NCBI GenBank assembly: GCA_020048335.1
Contig: JAIFMS010000197.1
Span: forward strand, 1-32,316
Source of the DNA: Methylococcaceae bacterium
GTDB lineage: Bacteria > Pseudomonadota > Gammaproteobacteria > Methylococcales > Methylomonadaceae
DNA length: 32,316 bases
Direction: 5' to 3'
Shown: one piece after another, positions 5,593 to 13,899 of the stretch
Numbering within the stretch: the first letter of the stretch is position 1
How the letters are laid out: each line of letters starts with the position of its first letter
Program-made: the position numbers and the translations under genes
Notes under the pieces: generated by a model
The model's input: only the letters and a program-made list of their open reading frames with translations
Database searches by the model: none
What the model was told of the DNA's origin: nothing

Positions 5593-6783
5593 ATGAATCA
5601 GCAACCTGTTAATAATCTGCTACGACAGACGCGAATTCTGCATACTCAAAATGGTGTTATCAATGTTCGTGCTGTTCACCGTTGCGAAATGCGAGACCAT
5701 GAATCACCTCCTTACTTTAATGATGCAATCCGGCAATATATTGATTCTGACAAAAATAATGACCATCTTTTCACTTTTATAGATTTATTTGCCGGAATTG
5801 GTGGAATTCGTCTTGGTTTTGAAGCACATAGAGGTCATTGTGTATTTACCAGTGAATGGAATTCATTCTCTCAAAAGACCTATCTAGCCAATTTTCAACA
5901 TGATGACAAACATATCCTTGCTGGCGACATTACAAGCATTGATGCTAATGACGTGCCAAATCATGATGTACTGTTAGCAGGCTTTCCTTGTCAGCCATTC
6001 AGTATCGCAGGAGTTTCAAAAAAAAATGCGCTAGGTCGCCCTCATGGATTTGAATGCACCACGCAGGGGACTTTGTTTTTTGATGTTGCACGGATCATTG
6101 CAGCTAAAAGACCTAAAGTGTTTTTATTGGAAAATGTTAAAAATCTTCTTTCTCACGACAAAGGAAATACTTTTAAGGTGATTTTGCAAACATTACGCGA
6201 TGAGCTTGGTTATACGGTGTATTACAAAGTTATTGACGGTCAATATTTCGTACCACAACATCGAGAACGTATTATTATCGTTGGCTTTCGAGATAAGACT
6301 GATTTTTCTTGGGATAATTTGCACTTACCAGCTAAAAAAACCTATCTTTCAAGTATCTTGCACCCGCAAGATGGTAGTGAAATAGCCGAAGAACCTTACA
6401 CTATTGGAGAACAAGCAACCATCAATCCAAAATATACGCTAACCCCAAATTTGTGGGCATATCTTCAAGCTTATAAAGAGAAACACCAAGCCGCTGGCAA
6501 TGGTTTTGGTTTTGGGTTAGTGACTTCGGATAGTGTAAGCCGTACTTTATCAGCAAGATATTATAAAGACGGCTCAGAAATTCTTGTTTCACAAGGAAAA
6601 AGCAAACGCCCCCGCAGACTAACGCCACGCGAATGTGCAAGACTTATGGGGTTTCCAGATACATTTAAAATCCCAGTCAGTGACACTCAAGCATACAGGC
6701 AATTTGGAAACAGCGTTGTAATGCCAGTGATGAAAGAGGTCGCAAGAATTTTAATCCCAAAGATTATAGAGATAAAACGATGA
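5593..6783 (+). CDS. DNA cytosine-5 methyltransferase, Dcm/M.EcoRII type
   Basis: A 396-residue C5-cytosine methyltransferase with all main motifs in order: [11 protein letters not shown] (62-71), IV FPCQPF with nucleophile Cys133, VI ENV (180-182), [31 protein letters not shown], and [11 protein letters not shown] near the C terminus. An N-terminal extension of about 60 residues precedes motif I, as in Dcm and M.EcoRII, where this part can act in autoregulation. With the EcoRII-like nuclease next to it, the expected target is CCWGG, methylated on the inner C (inference). The stop overlaps the nuclease start as ATGA. It is bounded, together with the nuclease, by repeats T2 and T3. Confidence 0.94.
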
Positions 6784-8006
6784 AACGAGGGTATCTTTCG
6801 CAGTATTTTGAAGGCGTTGCCCTGAAACGACTTAGTGCGGTTGAGGTTGATATGATGTATTCCCATCAGCATGAGTTTAATGGTGTTGAGGGATTGCGTG
6901 AAATACTTGGAGAACCAGAAGGAAAAGTTAAATACAAAGCTAAGTTTTTATATCTTACGGATTATGATGATGAGCCAATTATTGAAGATGGTTTTTTGAC
7001 TTGGTATGATGCACGACAAAGAGCAAGACTTGAAAAAGGAGTTATGCGATGGGAATATCGGCTTTATTTTCCAGCAAATCAGGTTTTGCAATGCGCGACT
7101 GTTGGGGATTTATTATTAATTGCAAAGCTGCCTGACGGCACTTTATTGGCAATAGTAGTGGAACAAGAAACAACTATTGCCAAACAACTTATGTGGTTGT
7201 TCGGGTTTTCAGATTTATCGCATCCCGGCTTTTCAATCCGTGAAGATTTAGAGACGGAACAAGACAGAATAGAATTTGCATCAAGATTTATTCTTGAAAA
7301 TATTGGGATTATTGTCGAAACTACTGAGGAAACTAGGCTGGATGCCATGCTTGAAAAGTTCAAAGGCAAATTTCCAACTACAAGAGAATTTTCTGCCTAT
7401 GCTCGCTCTACTTTGAAAGACATTGATCCTCAAGATGGGGCGGATGATGTATTAATGGCTTGGCTAGAACGCGAGGAAGTTTTATTCCGAACTTTAGAAC
7501 GCCATCTTATTGGAGACCGACTTACTCAAGGCTTTGATGACGATGTGGACAGTTTTATTAGTTTTTCGCTTTCAGTGCAGAACAGACGGAAAAGCCGCGT
7601 TGGTCTCTCGCTGGAAAATCATCTGGAATCTTTGTTTACTGCTTATAGCATCCGCTATTCCAGAACATCAGTCACAGAAAATAAAACAAAACCAGATTTT
7701 TTGTTTCCAGGATATGAGGAATATCACGACCCAACATTTAACCCAATAAATTTAACCATGCTAGGAGTAAAAACCACTTGCAAGGATCGTTGGCGACAAG
7801 TATTAACAGAGGCTAACCGAATTCCTAAAAAGCATCTTTTGACTTTAGAGGCAGCAATCAGCAGCAACCAGACTAATGAAATGCAATCGAAGAGTCTGCA
7901 ACTGGTTTTACCGCGTAGAATTCACGAATCCTATACAGATTTGCAACGCTCATGGCTTATGGATATATCAGAGTTTATAAGACTTGTTTCTGAGCGTGAC
8001 AAATAA
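6780..8006 (+). CDS. Type IIE restriction endonuclease, EcoRII-like
   Basis: A 408-residue protein with the EcoRII layout (EcoRII itself is about 400 residues). The N-terminal effector domain (about 1-180) contains [11 protein letters not shown] and [11 protein letters not shown]. The catalytic C-terminal domain (about 270-390) contains [18 protein letters not shown] with Asp306, and [13 protein letters not shown] with Lys331, which form the PD-(D/E)XK centre. EcoRII-type enzymes cut CCWGG and need a second site as allosteric effector. The start codon overlaps the methyltransferase stop by four bases, so nuclease synthesis is probably coupled to methylase translation. There is no frameshift or missing motif, so the pair looks intact. 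Confidence 0.93.
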
Positions 8007-8079: not shown

Positions 8080-8114
8080 AAAGCCCCACTTGCCAACGCA
8101 GTCGGGGCTTTTTT
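8080..8114 (+). terminator. Array repeat T3 (form B), terminator-like
   Basis: Form B repeat: AAAGCCCC pairs with GGGGCTTT, and the inner part CTTGCCAACGCAG differs from form A. A T6 run follows. It lies 73 bases after the restriction gene. Confidence 0.78.
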
Positions 8115-10070: not shown

Positions 10071-11477
10071 ATGAAATTTAAATTTGAACAATTAGGTCCT
10101 TTGTATAGCGGCGAAGTTGAACTTGCTGATTTAACTATTATCTGTGGTGAAAATAATACAGGTAAAACTTATATCACTAATTCTCTTTATGCCTTATTTT
10201 CTGGCTGGCAACAATTACTTGCATGGGATTTATCAGAAAAGGATATGCTTAAATTACAACGTGAAGGTTTTATCAGCATAGATTTACAAAAAGAGATTGT
10301 TGATAATTGGGTTATCATTTTGCAAAATACAATGAACAGATTATCCAGTAATTTACATGATTTTTTAAAAATAAACCCTGACCATTTAAAACAAACAAAG
10401 TTTTCCTTATTAGTGCCAATTACTAATGATTGGATTAATAGAAACTTTGAAAGTGAACTTAATAGTAGTCAAGGAAAGCTATTGGTTTCTATAAAAAAAC
10501 AACTGAATAGTAATATTGGAGAGATAGCTCTTGTAGTTGAATCAGGTGATGAGTTGCCACCTATTCATTCATTAGCTCGTTTTATTCGTGAGCAACTACT
10601 TGAGTTTGTTTTAGAAGATACATTTTCAAACGTTTTTATAGCAAGTGCAGAAAGAACTGGTGCGGCAATCTTTCAGGGTGAGCTTAATTTTTCTAAAAAC
10701 AAATTAGTCAAAATATTGACTGAAATGGAAAATGCTGAAAAATCAGTAGTAACCTTTTCAAAAATATTAAAAGTAATGCAACGAACTTATGCGTTGTCAA
10801 TTGATCACAATGTTGAATTTATCAATATTGAAATTAGAAATCTTGAGCAGTTTGGTATTAGCGAAATCATAAGAAATAATCCTGAGTTATTAAAAGATTT
10901 TCGTATAATTGCAGGTGGTACTTATACTGCTACTAAAGAAGGTGCGATTTATTTCACACCTCGTGGTACAACATTAAAAATGGGGTTAGGAGAAGCATCT
11001 AGTTCGGTCAGATCACTAATGGTGTTATGGTTTTGGCTAAATCACAAAGCTAAATCAGGCGATATGTTAATGATTGACGAGCCTGAATTAAATCTACACC
11101 CTACAAATCAGCGGCGGTTGGCTAGATTTTTAGCTGCTTTAGTTAATGCTGGAATTAAGGTGTTTTTAACAACCCATAGTGATTATATTATTCGGGAATT
11201 CAATACGTTGATTATGTTATCAAATGATAAGCCTCATTTGAAAGCAGTTAGAGAAAAATTTGGTTACAGTGAAAAGGATTTTTTGCAAGCAGAAAGGGTT
11301 GCTGTTTACAGTACAACAACCGAGCCTTTTGATATAGGAGGAAAAAAGAAAAAACGGTTAGGAACTTTGAAGAAATGGTCTGTTGAACAGAATCGAGGTA
11401 TTCAAATTAAAAGTTTTGATGATGTTATTAATGAAATGAATCATGTTCAAGATTCCATTTTATATGGAGTTTTTTAA
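10071..11477 (+). CDS. AAA/ABC-type ATPase of a two-gene putative defence system
   Basis: A 468-residue SMC/OLD-like ATPase. Walker A is GENNTGKT near residue 25 in TIICGENNTGKTYITNSL. A signature-like GEASSSVRSL is near 307, Walker B is MLMIDEPELNLHP near 330, and the H-loop is FLTTHSDYII near 365. The region between Walker A and the signature is a long helical insert. There is no C-terminal TOPRIM domain as in OLD nucleases; the tail is a basic segment with KKKKR. ATPases of this group sense phage or DNA structures in systems such as Gabija, Septu and PARIS, each paired with an effector. The stop overlaps the next start as TAATG, so the two are an operon. The specific system was not recognised. 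Confidence 0.85.
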   Translation: MKFKFEQLGPLYSGEVELADLTIICGENNTGKTYITNSLYALFSGWQQLLAWDLSEKDMLKLQREGFISIDLQKEIVDNWVIILQNTMNRLSSNLHDFLKINPDHLKQTKFSLLVPITNDWINRNFESELNSSQGKLLVSIKKQLNSNIGEIALVVESGDELPPIHSLARFIREQLLEFVLEDTFSNVFIASAERTGAAIFQGELNFSKNKLVKILTEMENAEKSVVTFSKILKVMQRTYALSIDHNVEFINIEIRNLEQFGISEIIRNNPELLKDFRIIAGGTYTATKEGAIYFTPRGTTLKMGLGEASSSVRSLMVLWFWLNHKAKSGDMLMIDEPELNLHPTNQRRLARFLAALVNAGIKVFLTTHSDYIIREFNTLIMLSNDKPHLKAVREKFGYSEKDFLQAERVAVYSTTTEPFDIGGKKKKRLGTLKKWSVEQNRGIQIKSFDDVINEMNHVQDSILYGVF

Positions 11478-12052
11478 TGTCTACTGATGCAATAAAAAAA
11501 CTACAGGAAACTATTGTACCTAGAATTAGACTCCGTTTCTCTAATGGTAGAATTGATTTACATGAAAATCAAAAAAATACTTTTTTAAAACACTTTATTA
11601 TCGGTGGAATAGACGAAGAATGTATTGCTATTAATTTAGATAAGGTTGGTTTTGCTAATAAAGTACTTCAAAACTCTAAAGGGCTTAAAGCATGTGATGC
11701 TGTCGTTTTTTGTCACTTAGATAATCAAGGCTACATTTTAATTCTCGAAATGAAATCTAGCATTCCTTCAGAAACAGAAAAGGAAAATGATAGCCCTATA
11801 TGGCAATTGAAAGCGGGGGATTGTTTTGCTGATTATTTATTATCGGTTTTAGAACATGTTGAAGAAATTAAAACAACAATGGGTTGGCAACGGCGTTATT
11901 TCATTTTCCACTGCAATCATAGGCAGCGTGATACGTTGCCTGATTATGCTACAGAGCTACTTGACAATGATCAAGCGAATAAACCTCATATTATGTTTGT
12001 CAACAATGATGAAATCGTCCCTTTGCGAAAACTTTTAGGTAAACCTTTATAG
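11477..12052 (+). CDS. Putative PD-(D/E)XK nuclease effector paired with the ATPase
   Basis: A 191-residue protein not assigned to a named family. It shows a possible restriction-nuclease-like core: Asp74 in LKACDAVVFCH, then Glu91-x-Lys93 in GYILILEMKSS, then Gln110 in WQLKAGDCFADYLL, which fits the D-(D/E)XK-Q arrangement with beta strands around it. The remainder includes MGWQRRYFIFHC and a C-terminal IMFVNNDEIVPLRKLL. It starts on the A of the ATPase stop codon (TAATG), so translation is coupled. By context it would be the effector nuclease. It is not an HNH (Septu), UvrD-like (Gabija) or clearly TOPRIM (PARIS) protein. The function is an inference. Confidence 0.65.
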   Translation: MSTDAIKKLQETIVPRIRLRFSNGRIDLHENQKNTFLKHFIIGGIDEECIAINLDKVGFANKVLQNSKGLKACDAVVFCHLDNQGYILILEMKSSIPSETEKENDSPIWQLKAGDCFADYLLSVLEHVEEIKTTMGWQRRYFIFHCNHRQRDTLPDYATELLDNDQANKPHIMFVNNDEIVPLRKLLGKPL

Positions 12053-13042: not shown

Positions 13043-13187
13043 ATTGCCTGTCGTTTGACACATTTCTGATTGCGGGTGTATGCTTTTTTACAGAGTCCTG
13101 AAAAACTCCAACCAAGAAGCGGACACCGCACCCGATAGTTTAGCGGTATTTTTTTGCCTGCCATTTTTGTGATTGTGCTGTTTATGG
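13043..13187 (+). other. Non-coding stretch before the KilA-N leader, with a terminator-like hairpin
   Basis: Part of the 372-base gap 12944-13315. ACCGC (13125-13129) and GCGGT (13143-13147) form a hairpin followed by A and T7, a possible terminator. GGGTGT near 13074 and GCACCC near 13128 could also pair. A minus-strand frame crosses this region but also covers a repeat and a leader, so it is not called as a gene. Confidence 0.4.
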
Positions 13188-13193
13188 CATAAT
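13167..13193 (+). promoter_or_regulatory. Candidate promoter of the KilA-N leader
   Basis: TTGTGA (13167-13172) and CATAAT (13188-13193) have a 15-base spacer, somewhat short. The predicted transcript start near 13200 falls right at the start of the 12-bp stem of the leader RNA. Confidence 0.45.
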
Positions 13194-13199
13194 TGCGCT

Positions 13200-13285
13200 C
13201 GTGGTTAGGAGTGGCGTGAATATATTGAATCAATGCCGCAGTTCTTCTTGGCTGTTTTCAGACTCCTAACCGCTCCTTCGGGAGA
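13200..13285 (+). ncRNA. Structured leader resembling C4 antisense RNA
   Basis: GTGGTTAGGAGT (13201-13212) pairs with ACTCCTAACCGC (13261-13272) over 12 bp with one G-U. Inside, GGCGT/AATGCC and CAG/CTG can form smaller stems, and CTCC-TTCG-GGAG follows at 13273-13284. TTTTCAGA (13255-13262) is perfectly complementary to TCTGAAAA (13290-13297), just before the KilA-N ribosome binding site, and TTCTTG (13245-13250) can pair with CAAGGA (13302-13307), the binding site itself. This matches the mode of the C4 RNAs of phages P1 and P7, which are processed from the leader of the antirepressor message and block its translation. Family assignment is from memory of the motif, not from a search. Confidence 0.6.
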
Positions 13286-13315
13286 TTTCTCTGAAAAGAA
13301 ACAAGGAAACTCAAA

Positions 13316-13846
13316 ATGGCTATTCAGCTCATCACCACACACTACGGCGAAATGTCCGTACAATTTCAAGAAAATGGCTTTATCAATGCCACCGCCATTG
13401 CAAAACAATTCAATAAACAACCGCGTGATTATTTAAAAACGGAACAAACGAAAAACTACATAAATTCAATTAAGAGAATATTCTTAATTGATGAAAATCA
13501 ACTGGTTATCGTCAGAGGTGGCTCTACTGAAAACGGTGGCGGAACTTGGTTACATCCTAAACTTGCCATTGATTTTGCACGCTGGTTAAGTTCTGATTTT
13601 GCAGTTTGGTGCGATTTTCAAATCGAAAAAATCTTGCATTTAAAAACTGCGCCTATCAATTCCGATTTAGCCGAAATTTTCCTAAAGCCCATTACCAAAT
13701 CCCTCACGCCTGATGATTTCAAATGGCGGTATCAAGTGCTGGCAACTGCTTTTCAGCATTTGAAAAATGCAACGATGGTGAAAACGTTTAAAGGCTCAGA
13801 ATTGTTGGTTGGCAAAGGCTTGGTGAAGTCAAAACGAATTTTTTAA
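13316..13846 (+). CDS. KilA-N domain protein (phage antirepressor-like)
   Basis: A 176-residue protein with the KilA-N DNA-binding fold. VQFQENGFINATAIAKQFNKQPRDYLKTEQTKNYINS is the first half and GGGTWLHPKLAIDFARWLSSDFAVWCDFQIEKIL the diagnostic second half. Such proteins are mostly phage regulators. The C-terminal 60 residues have no recognised domain. AAGGA at 13303-13307 precedes the ATG. No integrase or other phage gene is near, so it stands alone between repeats T8 and T9, together with its structured leader. Confidence 0.87.
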   Translation: MAIQLITTHYGEMSVQFQENGFINATAIAKQFNKQPRDYLKTEQTKNYINSIKRIFLIDENQLVIVRGGSTENGGGTWLHPKLAIDFARWLSSDFAVWCDFQIEKILHLKTAPINSDLAEIFLKPITKSLTPDDFKWRYQVLATAFQHLKNATMVKTFKGSELLVGKGLVKSKRIF

Positions 13847-13864
13847 GCACATCGCTTATGACAA

Positions 13865-13899
13865 AAAGCCCCGCTTGCCAACGCAATCAGGGCTTTTTT
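13865..13899 (+). terminator. Array repeat T9 (form B), between converging genes
   Basis: AAAGCCCCGCTTGCC...AATCAGGGCTTTTTT. Flanked by A and T tracts, it could end both the KilA-N transcript and the converging gyrB-lgt transcript. It is the right-hand edge of the array. Confidence 0.78.

Follow-up and report, generated by a model that had tools for sequence, protein, structure and literature searches.

In a Methylococcaceae bacterium, the leader that precedes a stand-alone KilA-N gene is, judged by its sequence, a divergent member of the sRNA-Xcc1 (RF02221) group and very probably gives rise to an sRNA-Xcc1-type antisense RNA that acts on KilA-N like the C4 RNA of phages. The window, the whole stretch of DNA that was analysed, comprises 32,316 nucleotides, and the elements of the unit follow one another in the order promoter, linker target, loop target, terminator, antisense RNA, linker target, loop target (Shine-Dalgarno) and gene (Table 1). 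The antisense parts are named loop and linker here; the labels a' and b' vary in the usage of the phage papers. Both targets occur a second time upstream (13098-13119), ahead of the terminator, and this second pair had been overlooked in an earlier note on this DNA.

Table 1. Features of the KilA-N unit, with positions in the window
Feature	Position	Strand	Basis
Promoter-like TTGACA-18-TATGCT	13055..13084	+	scan hit; identical in W, C57 and C73
Upstream target 1, CTGAAAA (13098-13104) in the loop of a GAGT/ACTC hairpin; complements the 3' linker	13093..13108	+	co-varies with the linker in C57 and C73
Upstream target 2, CCAAGAAG, complementary to the hairpin-B loop over 8 bp without mismatch	13112..13119	+	complementarity
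Terminator-like hairpin CCGC-N13-GCGG with T run, between upstream targets and RNA; putative end of a short decoy RNA	13126..13155	+	24/33 loci including W, C57 and C73
Putative -10-like CATAAT of the antisense RNA	13188..13193	+	conserved TTTATRGYAYAAT in W, C57 and C73; no scan hit
Antisense RNA core, sRNA-Xcc1 type (outer stem, hairpin A, hairpin B, linker)	13201..13273	+	fold z -4.29; RF02221 31.5 bits; R1 35.4 bits
CTCC-TTCG-GGAG hairpin with adjoining ATTTCT, perhaps a weak terminator or the 3' end of the antisense RNA	13273..13284	+	sequence; invariant in C57 and C73
Downstream targets TCTGAAAA (13290-13297, linker) and CAAGGA (13302-13307, loop, overlaps Shine-Dalgarno)	13290..13307	+	complementarity, co-folding
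Stand-alone gene for a KilA-N protein of 176 aa whose C-terminal tail (about residues 120-176) is genus-restricted	13316..13846	+	PF04383 E 9.3e-24; tail alignment A5/A6
Terminator at the end of the unit; the repeat to which it belongs closes other cassettes too	13866..13899	+	repeat search, alignment

A 12-bp stem and two complementary segments at the start of KilA-N had been described before and were confirmed by direct reading. The outer stem consists of 12 pairs, including one G-U, between GTGGTTAGGAGT (13201-13212) and ACTCCTAACCGC (13262-13273), the 3' linker TTTTCAGA (13255-13262) finds its perfect 8-bp complement in TCTGAAAA, and the loop TTCTTG (13245-13250) pairs with CAAGGA over 6 bp, one of them G-U, so as to overlap the AAGGA Shine-Dalgarno sequence; the ATG of KilA-N lies immediately 3' of these targets. 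The segment 13199-13275 folds with -29.2 kcal/mol, compared with a shuffle mean of -16.47 (z -4.29; 0/200 shuffles equal it), and its minimum-energy fold is a three-way junction in which the hairpin-B loop and the 3' linker segments are largely unpaired. Predicted duplexes reach -30.8 kcal/mol with the upstream target and -22.2 kcal/mol with the message, values that are attained by 3 and 4, respectively, of 1000 mononucleotide shuffles. When ranked against the targets of other loci, the 8-bp match of the linker to its downstream target is in the top 6%, the perfect 8-bp match of the loop to the upstream copy has rank 0.06, and the match of the loop to the Shine-Dalgarno region, taken alone, is not above non-cognate targets (rank 0.55). 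This last match gains weight because the same loop matches the upstream copy perfectly, and also from the C57 copy described below.

With respect to transcription, the earlier note had put the transcript start at the stem. A promoter of the leader is only suggested, by a CATAAT whose position would fit a start near 13200, but the promoter scan indicated no site at the leader start (about 13200). In the stretch scanned, 2 sites were found where shuffles predict 1.9, which means that the upstream promoter-like site is not above chance; a TTGACA upstream is also seen in the C4 units of the same genome. By the rule used, 9/33 loci have no terminator separating the upstream targets from the RNA.

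For the assignment to an RNA family, a covariance match to the Rfam C4 model had been named as the check, and this match failed: model RF01695 gave nothing at E<=10 (13060-13420), and the leader groups with sRNA-Xcc1 instead. Nor did the window match RF03163 (c4-a1b1) or isrK (RF01394), and no Rfam family was found in it at gathering score. The best Rfam match was sRNA-Xcc1 (RF02221), which covers the full length of the model at 13203-13279 with 31.5 bits and E 9.2e-4, below the Rfam cut-off of 53; the copy C73 obtained 33.4 bits. A model R1, built from 24 of 30 RF02221 loci of other genomes with the genome of the window excluded, gave 35.4 bits for the window (E 3.8e-6 in 98,497 bases), 33.3 for C73 and 24.4 for C57, and found none of the C4 units of this genome. 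When R1 was run over the 2.73-Mb genome, the window, C73 and C57 were the three best places (E 1e-4, 3.4e-4 and 0.045) and the next one had E 0.77. The Rfam RF02221 model, searched against this genome, listed C73 as the sole match, so a first look with it misses divergent members. Matches to mir-5615 and PhotoRC-I were rejected as chance, the mir-5615 model just seeing the inverted repeat of linker and target. In the Rfam table, C4 belongs to a clan and RF02221 to none.

C4 RNA is processed by RNase P to about 77 nt and represses an antirepressor. Like the C4 RNA of P1/P7 (RF01695), the window element is a three-way junction upstream of an antirepressor-type gene, with antisense segments in a loop and in the 3' linker, with targets at the ribosome binding site of the next gene and with a second target pair upstream. 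It differs from C4 in hairpin A and in the outer stem, and the C4 model does not match it; moreover, the gene stands alone and the unit lies outside any recognisable prophage. With sRNA-Xcc1 it shares the fold, the sequence signature, the paired targets and association with genes such as KilA-N and SymE, whereas hairpin A of the window is devoid of the inner mini-hairpin and the outer stem reads GTTAGGAG as compared with GGCCGGG. C4-like Group 1 sRNAs of Acinetobacter baumannii, which according to portions of PMC5320573 exist in many chromosomal copies with variable target loops, match the C4 motif there, unlike the window leader.

Two further copies in the genome of the window (W), C57 (protein 82% identical) and C73 (58%), carry the same leader amid unrelated housekeeping genes. 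In the alignment of the three, promoter, terminator and stem are nearly unchanged, and the linker changes together with both of its targets (TTTTCAG/CTGAAAA in W, TTTCTAC/GTAGAAA in C57 and TTTCTAA/TTAGAAA in C73). C57 deviates from W in the loop and in both loop targets as well, and pairing is kept, with one G-U in the downstream pairing. A further copy, in G036, has the leader, with a decayed KilA-N gene and the linker match lost. No relatives were found in the genome contigs searched and one partial relative in the viral contigs, and a by-eye reading upstream of six KilA-N relatives in other genomes (L071-L074, L008, L013) detected no leader of this kind.

The specificity of pairing was analysed over 63 loci, 60 of them from other genomes: 30 from a first search, W, C57 and C73, and 30 held-out loci. 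At E<=0.01, 26 of the 369 genomes searched in the class contained RF02221 (11 of them above the cut-off), and at E<=1e-4 it was present in 54 of 398 in the phylum (39 above the cut-off); both searches yielded more places than loci, the tested ones being 30 places per search. Two genomes, G930 and G1043, possess nine and five RF02221 copies, respectively. Each loop or linker was scored by its longest complementary run in the downstream and upstream regions of its own locus and of all other loci. Constant offsets from the RF02221 match end defined loop and linker, by which some loci are mis-framed. In the first set (n=33), cognate and non-cognate means were 6.52 and 5.03 for loop-down, 7.00 and 5.18 for loop-up, 6.26 and 4.79 for linker-down and 7.00 and 5.11 for linker-up. 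With the same settings, the held-out set (n=30) gave 6.95 and 4.86, 7.13 and 5.25, 6.05 and 4.92, and 8.17 and 5.22 for the same four pairings. For each pairing in both sets, 0/20000 permutations reached the cognate mean; these permutations exchange loci against loci, and relatedness among loci makes the test conservative. Negative controls with hairpin A as query or with the region 200 nt further downstream as target were flat. The result also holds when the test is run ungapped over 22 nt (0/20000 both ways), the cognate target being strictly best in 11/33 loci downstream and in 5/32 upstream. In 19/63 loci, the window among them, the loop-down score is 5.5 or lower and so near background. 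The C4-type logic that had been proposed for the leader, two antisense segments directed at the Shine-Dalgarno region, is backed by the co-variation of the paralogues and by this family-wide test.

An ATG reading frame of at least 45 aa with a Shine-Dalgarno-like site is present within 180 nt of the RNA in 53/60 RF02221 loci and missing in 7/60. When 48 of these 53 frames were scanned with Pfam (short or doubtful L030, L047, L050, L051 and L052 were left out), 16 could be assigned to a family: SymE 6, Bro-N 5 (one of them, L114, below the Pfam cut-off), KilA-N 2, Phage_pRha 2 and P22_AR_N 1. Antirepressor-type domains make up 10/16 of the assigned proteins and SymE the other 6; the only further family among the 48 was a helix-turn-helix accompanying Phage_pRha (L126), and 32 were without any family. 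In L103, L112 and L114 a short ORF lies between the RNA and the Bro-N gene, and the loop pairs at the start of the short ORF, an order that resembles icd-ant of P1. SymE of E. coli is reportedly under the control of an antisense RNA, SymR; SymR is encoded opposite symE, whereas the window RNA lies upstream on the same strand. KilA-N homologues are common in phages and plasmids, at less than 60% identity. The most likely role of the KilA-N protein of the unit is that of a phage-type antirepressor or regulator. Neither a symE-bearing RF02221 stretch nor the SymE protein had a match in plasmids, and the L055 protein had none in phages.

In the mechanism we propose, the leader would be processed to a small antisense RNA, and its hairpin-B loop and 3' linker would pair at the ribosome binding site of KilA-N, so that a read-through KilA-N transcript would stay untranslated. 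The upstream copy of the targets, situated between the promoter-like site and the terminator, may give a short RNA, and this decoy could bind the antisense RNA and free the message, by analogy with IsrK and anrP in Gifsy-1. IsrK is described in sections of PMC4825925 as a terminated 77-nt RNA upstream of the antirepressor gene anrP that in trans raises anrP translation 114- to 171-fold in wild-type translation fusions and that stops growth when over-expressed. Window positions 13091-13156 occupy the place that corresponds to IsrK (Salmonella Gifsy-1, RF01394), and STnc1160 would be the C4-like part of the Gifsy-1 system. Since the paralogues have re-targeted linkers, each unit would mostly silence its own kind, as in P1 and P7.

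A rather unlikely reading takes the RNA as an antitoxin and the unit as a type I toxin-antitoxin (addiction) module, in which KilA-N would be toxic and loss of the module would kill the cell. The unit does lie among toxin-antitoxin cassettes, antisense pairing is found, SymE is the downstream gene in 6 loci, and the growth arrest by over-expressed IsrK (PMC4825925, in the sections cited) fits; however, KilA-N, Bro-N, P22_AR_N and Rha point to regulators, and the presence of several scattered copies whose linkers differ calls for no such module. The type I reading is compatible with C4-type control of KilA-N as the main explanation. It is improbable that the element is a cis-only switch, the segments pairing within one transcript so that the ribosome binding site is masked and no separate small RNA acts in trans. 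Antisense and target segments do stand on one read-through transcript and co-folding gives the duplex, but the single-strand fold keeps the outer stem intact, the second upstream target would be left unexplained, and both sRNA-Xcc1, a separate 88-nt RNA by northern and RACE in passages of PMC2996969, and the C4 RNA of P1/P7, processed by RNase P according to parts of PMC5320573, are RNAs of their own.

Contrary to the C4-type function preferred here, the published view, as set out in passages of PMC2996969 and PMC12189769, treats sRNA-Xcc1 as a trans-acting, virulence-linked sRNA, with 212 predicted targets in Xylella. A predominantly trans mode of action of sRNA-Xcc1-type RNAs, on a large number of chromosomal mRNAs and with the next-gene match as a by-product, appears highly improbable in view of the cognate next-gene and upstream matches in two independent sets, in which loop and linker track the neighbouring targets. 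A chance hairpin with chance complementarity, to which the shortness of the loop/Shine-Dalgarno match and its background level when taken alone might be ascribed, has next to no standing against a fold z of -4.29, an independent model match and co-variation in three copies.

The sRNA-Xcc1 family is thus probably a C4-type antisense system, and the window element, being a divergent member, belongs to a family whose function is, on this evidence, C4-type. We further consider it likely that sRNA-Xcc1 as a whole is a widespread C4-type plug-in with an upstream decoy and not a trans-acting virulence sRNA, that within prophages, integrons and defence islands it silences antirepressors (KilA-N, Bro-N, P22_AR_N, Rha) along with SymE and many small uncharacterised genes, and that its loop and linker are re-targeted at each locus, giving immunity to its own kind only. 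A mechanism would thereby be given to an RNA family that has been treated as trans-acting with hundreds of predicted targets, and C4-type control would extend beyond prophages, members of one protein family being found with leaders of the C4 or of the sRNA-Xcc1 type. An explanation is also offered for sRNA-Xcc1 upstream of symE in integron cassettes of Xanthomonas, a location for which the mechanism is left open in the relevant part of PMC12444791. No proposal of a C4-like role for sRNA-Xcc1 was found in the literature searched, a body of texts that does not extend to subscription papers.

All eight proteins of the set to which the KilA-N protein belongs in this genome (8/8) share a C-terminal tail of about 55 residues and differ in their N-terminal domains. 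Of the eight genes, three are preceded by sRNA-Xcc1-type leaders and four by true C4 leaders, and neither kind lies directly upstream of the eighth; the four C4 units show, by eye, the same five-part layout as the window. As one protein family carries either leader, C4 and sRNA-Xcc1 leaders look interchangeable in this set, as far as sequence comparison goes. The tail was detected in 9/301 genomes of the order at E<=0.01 (7 at E<1e-12), all from two genera of one family, and had no match in phages. At 6/8 tail loci scanned a C4 leader was found; one of these six is just under the cut-off, and two overlap on one contig. AlphaFold gave no usable model of A5 (pLDDT 44). The tail set appears as a domain-swapping antirepressor family that is limited to two genera in the genomes searched. 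In two arrays, L019 (C89) and L021 (C133), antirepressor-type genes stand behind true C4 leaders, and each of them ends in the tail of about 55 aa. At L021:13315-13827 (-), a KilA-N paralogue with the tail and an upstream promoter-like sequence is devoid of an RNA leader; C4 RNAs encoded in that array may act on it in trans.

As for the surroundings, the earlier note had placed the unit not in a prophage but in a toxin-antitoxin array. For the neighbours scanned this stands: they comprise an EcoRII-type restriction pair, HEPN, YefM-YoeB, HigBA, an AAA ATPase pair and a ParE-like pair, followed by lgt and gyrB (the latter named from sequence), and 0 of the 30 window proteins scanned with Pfam were phage structural proteins. 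The cassette ends, by contrast, turned out to be terminators and not integron sites. An integron cassette was rejected after the TIGR02249 integrase had given 0 hits in this genome (about 90% complete), the 14 control genomes with matches below the cut-off being taken as having other tyrosine recombinases; attC ends were likewise rejected, the cassette ends aligning as shared terminators (attC consensus judged by eye). The 34-base terminator repeat ends many toxin-antitoxin and defence cassettes, with 14 matches on both strands at no more than 3 mismatches and 0 for a control pattern; its sites are at window positions 8081, 8615, 9299, 12080, 13009 and 13866, and also in C25, C57, C73 and C102. 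In window 5593-8006, a cytosine methylase and an EcoRII-type endonuclease lie beside the HEPN gene and toxin-antitoxin pairs, and this region constitutes a defence island adjoining lgt-gyrB. In window 10071-12052, the AAA ATPase gene overlaps a gene for a 191-aa protein without a Pfam or NCBIfam family, and a weak similarity to PtuA/retron effectors suggests that the two might form a defence pair.
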